From Planctomycetota bacterium (GTDB taxonomy: Bacteria > Planctomycetota > Phycisphaerae > WQYP01), in NCBI GenBank assembly GCA_021790385.1, contig JAJYDW010000005.1:34880-98879 (forward strand): a stretch of DNA of 64,000 nt. Reading direction: 5' to 3'. Position 1 is the stretch's first letter, and each line of letters opens with the position of its first letter. Positions 19,357 to 21,380 of this stretch are shown piece after piece. Under the pieces are notes generated by a model. The model was given only the letters and a program-made list of their open reading frames with translations. It searched no databases and was not told the DNA's origin. Both the position numbers and the translations under genes were made by a program.

Positions 19357-20952
19357 TCATTGCTCCAACGATGAACCCTGCGTAATGGTACGTTTGGCCA
19401 TGGTGCGAATGCGATTGATCGCAGCCAGGTACGCCTTGGCCGAGGCTTCCAGAATATCGGTACTAAAACCGCGTCCACGCACCTTGCGGCCATTGTGAGT
19501 AAGTTCAACCATGACTTCGCCCTGGGCCTCACGGCCGCCGGTAATGCTGCGCACCTGGTACGATTCCAGCCGGGCGCTGATACGCGTGATGCGCTGAATA
19601 ACGGCGAACATGGCGTCAATCGGGCCGTCGCCGGTGGCGGCATCGGTAATGGCTGCATCCGAGGAATCCATGAGAGTAACGGTGGCGGTGGCTACACCCT
19701 GGTTGCTCGCCATCACCTGGAGATTTTTAAGGCGAAACAGCGGAGCGGATGTTTCCAACTGCTCTTCGACCAGGGCTTCCAGGTCTTCATCGTAGATTTC
19801 CTTTTTCTTGTCGCAAAGAACCTTGAACCGCTCGAAAGCTACATCCAAAGCGGACTCCTCCAACTTCAAATCCAATTCCTCCAGGCGCTGGCGAAATGCA
19901 TGGCGTCCGGAGTGTTTGCCCAGGACCAGCCGATTCTGGATTAACCCTACATCCGACGGAGACATTATTTCGTAGGTGCTGCGCTCCTTGAGAATGCCAT
20001 CCTGATGAATGCCGGCCTCGTGGGCGAAGGCATTTTCTCCGACAATGGCCTTGTTGCGCTGCACCTGAAGACCGGTCAACGAGCTGACCATGCGCGAACA
20101 GGGCACAAGTTTTCGGGTGTTAATGCCTGTTTCATACGGGAAGTCCGCCTGCCGCGTGCGTATGGCCATGACGATTTCCTCCAGAGCCGCGTTGCCGGCG
20201 CGTTCACCGATTCCGTTGATGGTACATTCCACCTGCCGCGCCCCACCCGCGACAGCCGCCAGGGAATTGGCCACGGCCAAACCCAGGTCGTTGTGGCAAT
20301 GGGCGCTGAAAATAACCTTGGAGGCGCAAGGCACGTGCTGCATCAGGTATTCAAACATAGCCTGATATTCCGCCGGCAAGGCATAGCCCACAGTATCGGG
20401 GCAATTGATGGTGGTAGCTCCGGCTTCAATGGCGGCGCTAACCACTTCCGCCAGAAAATCCAATTCAGTACGGCTGGCATCTTCCGGCGAAAATTCCACA
20501 TCCTGCACGTAGCTGCGGGCCAGCTTTACGCTTTCTACAGTCAGCCGGATAATTTCATCCTTGGCCTTTTTAAGTTTGAACTCGCGATGAATTTTACTGG
20601 TGGCACAGAACACATGAATGCGGCCATGCGCGGCCCGCTGTACCGCTTCGCCGGCGCGGCGAACATCCTTTTCCGTGCATCGGGCCAGGCCGGCAACCGT
20701 GGCCCTGGTAATTTCCGAGGCGATGGCCGCTACGGCCTCAAAATCGCCGGGACTGGTGATTGGAAATCCGGCTTCTATAACATCCACCCCCAGTTGTTCA
20801 AGCGAACGGGCGATTTCCAACTTTTCATGCAGATTCAGCGAAGCCCCCGGCGATTGCTCGCCATCACGCAGGGTGGTGTCAAAAATTCGAATTCGTGGAC
20901 GATTCGCAGCAATGTCCGCGGTCACTGGTGATGGGTTTGCTTGGGTGGTCAT
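19357..20952 (-). CDS. leuA: 2-isopropylmalate synthase
   Basis: The product is 531 residues and makes 2-isopropylmalate from acetyl-CoA and 2-oxoisovalerate, the first committed step of leucine synthesis. The N-terminal TIM barrel shows FDTTLRDGEQSPGASL (metal-binding Asp and catalytic Arg), FSAHCHNDLGLAVANSLAAV (HxH metal ligands) and NGIGERAGNAALEE. The C-terminal ~140 residues form the LeuA allosteric (leucine-binding) domain. Length fits the long bacterial form. GAGG is 9 nt upstream of the ATG. Its 5' leader holds a leucine attenuator (21007-21156). No other leu gene is adjacent. Confidence 0.97.
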   Translation of the reverse strand: MTTQANPSPVTADIAANRPRIRIFDTTLRDGEQSPGASLNLHEKLEIARSLEQLGVDVIEAGFPITSPGDFEAVAAIASEITRATVAGLARCTEKDVRRAGEAVQRAAHGRIHVFCATSKIHREFKLKKAKDEIIRLTVESVKLARSYVQDVEFSPEDASRTELDFLAEVVSAAIEAGATTINCPDTVGYALPAEYQAMFEYLMQHVPCASKVIFSAHCHNDLGLAVANSLAAVAGGARQVECTINGIGERAGNAALEEIVMAIRTRQADFPYETGINTRKLVPCSRMVSSLTGLQVQRNKAIVGENAFAHEAGIHQDGILKERSTYEIMSPSDVGLIQNRLVLGKHSGRHAFRQRLEELDLKLEESALDVAFERFKVLCDKKKEIYDEDLEALVEEQLETSAPLFRLKNLQVMASNQGVATATVTLMDSSDAAITDAATGDGPIDAMFAVIQRITRISARLESYQVRSITGGREAQGEVMVELTHNGRKVRGRGFSTDILEASAKAYLAAINRIRTMAKRTITQGSSLEQ

Positions 20953-20965
20953 GGTTGGTTACCTC

Positions 20966-20994
20966 AAAAAAAAGCCACGGCGAAAAGACCATGG
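20966..20994 (-). terminator. Second hairpin plus T-tract in the leuA leader
   Basis: Reading the minus strand, CCATGG, an 8-nt loop, CCGTGG (one wobble pair) and a run of eight T lie ~15 nt upstream of the leuA ATG. It looks like a weak second intrinsic terminator or a structure that modulates ribosome access. The stem is short, so this is tentative. Confidence 0.3.
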
Positions 20995-21006
20995 AAAATC
21001 AGGCCA

Positions 21007-21156
21007 TAAAAAAACCCCGCGAGGATCGCTCGCAGGGTTAGAAAGCATATTGCAGACAATACCACCCTACCAGCGTCCAGGCCAAAGGCCGGCCAGCCCC
21101 AGATTCAACAGGGTAAGCGACAGATACGGGAGCGTATTGGACAATCCAAATTTCAT
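21007..21156 (-). promoter_or_regulatory. Leucine-responsive transcription attenuator of leuA
   Basis: Four segments can be read on the minus strand. Segment 1 is ACCCT at 21114-21110, within the leucine codons of the leader peptide. Segment 2 is GTAGGGT ending at 21064, overlapping the leader stop codon. Segment 3 is ACCCTGC from 21038 down. Segment 4 is the G-rich CTCGCGGGGTT. Segment 2 pairs with 1 or with 3 (7 bp including one wobble; a 6-bp TATTG/CAATA-type hairpin stacks inside). Segments 3 and 4 form an 11-bp terminator stem with a 5-nt loop (21013-21039), followed by a T-tract (21008-21014). Ribosome stalling at leucine codons would mask segment 1, favour 2:3 and allow leuA transcription. 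Confidence 0.8.
21067..21156 (-). CDS. leuL: Leucine-rich leader peptide of the leuA attenuator
   Basis: A 29-codon frame runs from ATG 21156 to TAG 21069-21067. Nine residues are leucine (positions 5, 9, 12, 14, 16, 17, 19, 21, 24), encoded by CTG, TTG, CTC and CTT. The centre is the cluster LSLTLLNLGLAGL. There is no Shine-Dalgarno sequence; the -10 element of the promoter ends 8 nt before the ATG, so the transcript probably starts at the A of the ATG (leaderless). The stop codon overlaps the segment that pairs with both alternatives of the attenuator. The peptide itself likely has no function other than sensing Leu-tRNA supply. Confidence 0.75.
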   Translation of the reverse strand: MKFGLSNTLPYLSLTLLNLGLAGLWPGRW

Positions 21157-21163
21157 GCCATTT

Positions 21164-21192
21164 AGTGTACCGCATGTTTTTGTTCTCGTCAA
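21164..21192 (-). promoter_or_regulatory. Promoter of the leuL-leuA transcript
   Basis: On the minus strand TTGACG (21192-21187; 5/6), a 17-bp spacer and TACACT (21169-21164; 4/6) form a sigma70-type promoter. The predicted start falls at or next to 21156, the first base of the leader peptide. Confidence 0.55.
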
Positions 21193-21275
21193 GTCAAAAA
21201 CCGCCCTCGAAAAATAGATAAAAAAATCGCCGCATTGAAACGAGTCGTACACTTTCAAAATCAACCGGAGCCTTT

Positions 21276-21281
21276 TATAAT
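21276..21281 (+). promoter_or_regulatory. -10 element for tRNA-Leu
   Basis: A perfect TATAAT lies 15 bp upstream of the mature 5' end of tRNA-Leu. The -35 region 17 bp upstream (TTTCAA) is poor. Confidence 0.45.
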
Positions 21282-21296
21282 CGTTCGTGGCCGATC

Positions 21297-21380
21297 GCCG
21301 GAGTGGCGGAACTGGCAGACGCGCCGGACTCAAAATCCGGTTCTCGCAAGAGAGTGTGGGTTCGATTCCCTCCTCCGGCA
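21297..21380 (+). tRNA. tRNA-Leu(CAA)
   Basis: The acceptor arms GCCGGAG and CTCCGGC pair fully, with discriminator A. The anticodon arm is CCGGA-CTCAAAA-TCCGG, giving anticodon CAA for UUG leucine codons. A long variable arm (TTCTCGCAAGAGAG) and the TTCGATT loop are typical of the leucine class. The 84-nt gene does not encode CCA. It is divergent from the leuL-leuA unit, whose leader peptide contains two UUG codons. Confidence 0.95.

Follow-up and report, generated by a model that had tools for sequence, protein, structure and literature searches.

A very probable leucine attenuator with a predicted leaderless leader peptide before leuA in a Planctomycetota bacterium

The classical attenuator of the leu operon (leuL of E. 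coli and Salmonella) combines a leucine-rich leader frame, rare leucine codons, a choice between terminator and antiterminator and a leader stop codon located near segment 2. Rare leucine codons are typical of the enteric leu leaders, and a 1:2 hairpin is a frequent, not a universal, feature of ribosome-mediated attenuators. The device described here resembles leuL in the four features named first. It differs in standing before leuA, likely in another phylum, in being predicted to be leaderless, in a 1:2 stem that is unsupported and in the lack of any Rfam match at threshold.

Other described systems share particular aspects with it. According to the accessible text of PMC11857589, the ilvBNC transcript of Corynebacterium glutamicum begins a single nucleotide away from the start codon of its leader, and its attenuation is translation-dependent; the title of a work of 2000 cited there refers to leader peptide formation without a ribosome binding site. 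The present locus would share both the transcript start at the leader start, predicted here, and the translation-dependent attenuation, whereas ilvBNC differs by its Ile/Val/Leu leader placed before ilvBNC, its three-hairpin model and its actinobacterial host (PMC11857589, partial text). Likewise, the RNA 5' end of Sinorhizobium meliloti trpLE(G) is the ATG of the leader peptide, as is predicted here; that system is unlike ours in its Trp leader and in an attenuated RNA and a peptide that also act in trans (PMC7298713, partial text). The LEU element of actinobacterial leuA displays a leader frame with a run of leucines before leuA, as here, and is distinguished by a pseudoknot whose base stem pairs the leucine codons with the leuA Shine-Dalgarno sequence, its authors doubting classical attenuation (PMC1262725, partial text). 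No leu attenuator of Planctomycetota was found in the open-access literature, among the matches listed and judged by title and start of abstract, which fits the statement of the earlier note on this DNA that its author was not aware of one; in the accessible portion of PMC4833913, leader genes of Planctomycetes are treated only statistically.

The DNA under study is a stretch of 64,000 nucleotides, referred to as the window, whose minus strand carries in order a sigma-70-like promoter, a leader frame, a terminator and leuA. The leuA gene (19357..20952, 531 aa) is assigned to 2-isopropylmalate synthase because its product scores 718 bits on the TIGR00973 profile (cut-off 598.7), and a GAGGT word at 20961..20965, found by eye, is its likely Shine-Dalgarno sequence. 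Promoter scanning placed a -35 hexamer TTGACG at 21187..21192 and a -10 hexamer TACACT at 21164..21169, with a spacer of 17 nt and a gap of 7 nt to the leader ATG. The leader frame (21067..21156, MKFGLSNTLPYLSLTLLNLGLAGLWPGRW followed by the stop), established by frame reading and by conservation in relatives and predicted to be leaderless, runs from the ATG at 21156 to the TAG at 21069-21067 and holds the 29 codons and nine leucines announced for it. Its likely control region, delimited by genus comparison and a fold model, extends over codons 12-24 (21085..21123). Segment 2, which includes the leader stop, provides the 5' arm of the antiterminator (GGACGCTGGTAGGGT, 21064..21078) and segment 3 its 3' arm (ACCCTGCGAGCGATC, 21024..21038), both being defined by duplex search and covariation. 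Segments 3 and 4 form the intrinsic terminator hairpin retrieved by a terminator scan (21013..21039; 11 pairs, loop of 5), followed directly on its 3' side by a T-tract (21008..21012); the stem and T-tract previously proposed are thus both present, as are the ACCCT/AGGGT words, which are found within the leucine codons, across the stop and in the arm of the terminator.

The surroundings contain further elements. A second terminator-like hairpin of 7 pairs with a T-rich tail lies past the attenuator, ahead of the leuA Shine-Dalgarno sequence (20994-20975, minus strand). A tRNA-Leu(CAA) gene (21297-21380, plus strand) is divergent from the leader, and a promoter-like site TTCAAA-16-TATAAT at 21254-21281 goes with it. 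This tRNA gene was considered as a part of the device and rejected: among 53 scanned loci, and apart from the window, only three have it next to leuA, namely L115, L116 and L033. Of these, L116 and L033 look like one genome, and the leuA product of L033 is 99% identical to that of the window. It was not found beside leuA in the short stretch examined of L114, a locus of the same genus.

With high probability, the leader and the mutually exclusive hairpins before leuA make up a leucine attenuator mediated by the ribosome, and the leader is predicted to begin at the first transcript base. The frame, the promoter spacing, the two possible helices and the conservation and covariation of these helices can be read in the DNA; from them we infer transcript start, translation, stalling and termination, which would be linked as follows. 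The ribosome would load on the 5' AUG of the leader transcript. When charged tRNA-Leu is scarce, it would slow down in the leucine codons and leave segment 2 free to pair with segment 3, so that the terminator would be blocked and leuA transcribed. When leucine is ample, the ribosome would reach the UAG within segment 2 and mask this segment, segment 3 would then pair with segment 4 and transcription would end before leuA.

Conservation of the leader was assessed on the leuA loci L113-L161 (n=49), from which L113 (a stretch from the other flank of the gene), L128 and L129 (both ending too soon) and L161 (without the motif) were left out; L142 was admitted by a looser motif, and G001, the genome of the dropped L113, was represented through L269. 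In 23 of the remaining 45 loci of the class, a leucine-rich ATG frame before leuA surpasses dinucleotide shuffles (p<=0.02), and no other amino acid does so on the sense strand in more than 4. The antisense control yielded leucine in 0/45 and lysine in 6/45, and this last figure makes the test somewhat noisy; the same unbiased test is missed at p<=0.02 by 22/45 loci, and since the loci are related, such counts are not independent. Hand curation gave 44 leaders, the window included, after L152 and L155 were set aside as lacking an assignable leucine-rich leader (a weak one was assigned to L155 in the later analysis of the G043 order). These leaders span 14-39 codons and contain 275 leucines in 1074 residues (25.6%), with TAG as the stop in 32/44; that of L138 begins with GTG, and those with few leucines (e.g. 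L122, L124, L144, L156, L160) were assigned with relatives and promoter taken into account. Within the genus, represented by five genomes including two pairs with near-identical leaders, the frame is always 29 codons long and leucine is invariant at codons 12, 14, 16, 17, 19, 21 and 24, all within the control region defined above. Codons 12 and 17 vary synonymously with leucine retained, while nine other codons change their amino acid, Leu5 and Leu9 among them. The leucine-rich frame is therefore kept among relatives, both across the class (23/45 loci) and at fixed positions in the genus.

Such hydrophobic, leucine-rich peptides could alternatively be functional small proteins, membrane-bound or acting in trans, for which peTrpL of Sinorhizobium offers a precedent (PMC7298713, partial text). 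This explanation, which could coexist with attenuation, is quite improbable in view of the many non-leucine residues that vary in the genus and of the class peptides, which share by eye little except leucine runs and short endings.

Codon choice in the leaders departs from that of the adjoining genes. CUA accounts for 39/275 leucine codons in the leaders versus 9/1299 in the leuA pieces belonging to these loci, an enrichment of about 24-fold (odds ratio; Fisher p about 1e-22 if codons count as independent), and occurs in 26/44 leaders versus 6/44 leuA pieces. The leader of the window itself has no CUA codon.

Of the 44 class loci to which a leader had been assigned, 40 were found to have an intrinsic terminator. 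The antiterminator was then defined, by score alone, as the best duplex that the terminator 5' arm can form with the 112 nt before it. This best partner covers the leader stop in 31/40 loci, 3.9 being expected from shuffles, and falls within 15 nt of the stop in 38/40, as compared with 10.5 expected. In the window, the resulting 2:3 helix spans 15 positions, 13 of them paired by hand count, and is longer than the earlier note had seen; the duplex itself is borderline against shuffles (p=0.05), and p<=0.05 is reached in 31/40 loci. Covariation was tabulated on 29 of the 40 loci, amounting to 20 distinct sequences, the other 11 being left out for a duplex off the stop (9) or for want of a usable GGG core (2). 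Among the 20 distinct antiterminators, 221/260 cells are paired versus 71-109 when the arms are slid by 1-3, a comparison in which the register was picked by pairing score and the unslid value is favored; the stop-codon test is free of this bias. The same 20 sequences contain 25 changes on both sides of the helix, with four positions at p<=0.002, so that compensatory changes are indeed found in relatives.

The third pairing of the scheme gave another result. The earlier note had proposed a 1:2, 2:3 or 3:4 choice, and its 2:3 and 3:4 members stand as conserved, covarying helices; the 1:2 stem does not exceed shuffles (p=0.46 in the window; p<=0.05 in 2/39 loci). Being no better than chance in the window and in relatives, the 1:2 pairing was rejected as a pause or protector hairpin. 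This missing support does not exclude the class of attenuators, the 1:2 hairpin not being universal among them, and the attenuator reading does not need the 1:2 stem.

The terminator could also be governed by a protein or a small-molecule riboswitch, the leucine-rich frame remaining unread. The actinobacterial LEU element, argued to be non-classical despite its leucine-rich frame, lends some credit to this possibility (PMC1262725, partial text), which we consider very improbable on several grounds. No Rfam family reached threshold on the window element, where only the neighboring tRNA matches, nor in 12 related loci (10 leuA, 2 citramalate synthase). Leucine identity is retained through synonymous change, the leaders are biased towards a rare codon, and the leader stop lies inside segment 2 in 31/40 loci. 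The relatives thus lend strong support to ribosome-mediated leucine attenuation, as originally proposed, through their conserved frame, a leader stop placed within the antiterminator, covarying pairs and a bias towards a rare codon. Judged from sequence comparison, the leucine attenuator is very likely genuine, and it is ordinary in principle.

The specificity of the arrangement was examined at two scales. The 64-kb scan returned four strong terminators (one on the plus and three on the minus strand) and three short ATG frames with their ends 8-60 nt ahead of them; of these, only the present one showed either a biased amino-acid content of the frame or a duplex across its stop. A core pattern of the element has one site per genome in 17/61 genomes, none being returned by the reversed-pattern control, and all 17 sites share a contig with a LeuA-dimer match, about 1.2 kb upstream of the match by coordinates.

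The switch was also explored with an equilibrium fold model in which the ribosome masks 11 nt past the A-site codon. With a stall at codons 18-21 of the window leader (Leu19, Leu21), the model gives an antiterminator of about 0.7 and a terminator of 0.00-0.03. The antiterminator mainly prevails for stalls at codons 3-13 and 18-21, the state is mixed at codons 1-2, 14-17 and 22-23, and the terminator reaches 0.93-0.97 from codon 24 through the stop. Three of the seven fixed leucines fall in codons 14-17, where the mixed state has a terminator of 0.41-0.54. Five other loci were modeled: L147 displays a clean switch, L125 and L139 a partial one, and L118 and L121 no clean equilibrium switch, the terminator register of L121 being doubtful. 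In both of the latter, an early antiterminator forms in the model at most leucine stalls before segment 4 is made.

Initiation of the leader is likely leaderless, with a predicted start at or next to 21156, a call made on the basis of promoter spacing. The window promoter has p=0.01 against shuffles, and promoter scores reach p<=0.05 in 41/44 class leaders. The gap between the -10 hexamer and the ATG is exactly 7 nt in the window, L114, L115, L116 and, by eye, G001, and its letters differ among these five genus genomes while its length is maintained. A leaderless leader, as the earlier note proposed, is a likely prediction that fits the promoter placement in five of five genus genomes. Across the class, the gap measures 6-10 nt in 20/44 leaders and at least 18 nt in 24/44, with none intermediate; for L140, L154 and L158 the start was picked by hand from the in-frame ATGs in the knowledge of the promoter, a choice that favors the leaderless count, and L142 was counted as non-leaderless despite a TATAAT 7 nt before its ATG. 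Shine-Dalgarno-like words are present in 3/20 short-gap and 11/24 long-gap leaders. In a study including a single Planctomycetes species, the phylum is among those whose non-Shine-Dalgarno genes lean towards leaderless and/or S1-mediated initiation (PMC5397173, partial text).

The long-gap leaders, 11 of them with Shine-Dalgarno-like words, raise the alternative of an attenuator on a non-leaderless mRNA, where transcription would begin elsewhere and the leader would be initiated without a Shine-Dalgarno sequence on a 5' untranslated region. For the window this is unlikely: its promoter stands at p=0.01 exactly 7 nt from the ATG, the gap keeps this length with differing letters in the five genus genomes, and scanning 20950-21300 for consensus promoters gave no other on the minus strand.

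Beyond the class, a phylum sample of 40 loci was analyzed, 39 of them testable and 38 outside the class. The leucine signal reaches p<=0.02 in 10 of the 39 testable loci, all 10 outside the class, and antisense leucine in 1. Other biosynthetic genes were inspected as well. Before the citramalate synthase paralog, Ile-bearing leaders were found in 3/11 loci (8, 5 and 3 Ile in 12 codons; counted without shuffle control), namely L169, L171 and L172 (e.g. MNIQNIIISIIINIGGD), where inspection by eye shows, further downstream, a terminator-like hairpin with a T-tract. No such Ile-bearing leader precedes citramalate synthase in the 6 loci of the window's family; four loci of this family (L164-L167) share by eye a short frame with a GTG start, whose ends (GTGCGGACAG and CTGTCCGCGC-like) could pair. 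No convincing Trp-rich frame was found before trpE in the 30 places read, out of 52 (420 nt ahead of the match, in each orientation; 8/30 loci reach contig ends and their windows may be off), and attenuation is consequently not shown to be general here.

A variant was observed in the order of G043, for which 44 loci were assembled (the 40 loci L277-L316 together with L142, L149, L155 and L158). A pattern search matched a leader and a hairpin at its stop in 39/44 of them; in 6 of these 39 the match fell on an overlapping string, and only the alignment reveals the hairpin. In 33/39 of these leaders the -10 gap measures at most 10 nt, the start being picked among in-frame ATGs by promoter score, and a terminator score of 14 is passed by only 3/39 loci. 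An alignment of 31 loci displays TGCGCC-loop-GGCGC at the stop (assessed without shuffle control) followed by a G-poor stretch; many of its rows contain a block resembling TTGAAA-17-CATAAT before leuA, and GCATAAT occurs in 24/39 loci. The G043 order thus keeps a leaderless-looking leucine leader, mostly without an intrinsic terminator, with an apparent hairpin that holds or abuts the stop. In L149, L158 and L277-L316, many leaders end in L-R-x-stop (LLLRP, LLLRR) or LALRG with differing codons, and these shared endings may hint at a constraint at the peptide level. The leaderless leucine leader could then be an old, class-wide module with exchangeable outputs, a proposal that we advance tentatively and judge to fall a little short of probable. 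In most families its output would be an antiterminator/terminator switch without pause hairpin. The G043 order would have lost the intrinsic terminator; there a stop-codon hairpin would close the leader, with unstructured sequence and what looks like a second promoter beyond it, and leucine would act through Rho or promoter interference.

The predicted device would extend amino-acid-sensing attenuation to a phylum for which the searched open-access literature, among the matches listed, holds no example, and the relatives give it an evolutionary support beyond the reach of a single sequence. In enteric attenuators, a pause keeps translation and transcription coupled in step. A likely leaderless start combined with an unsupported pause hairpin raises the question of whether ribosome loading at the 5' end replaces this pause. 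The G043 order, in which the leader is kept and the terminator is mostly missing, would permit the comparison of two outputs of one sensor.
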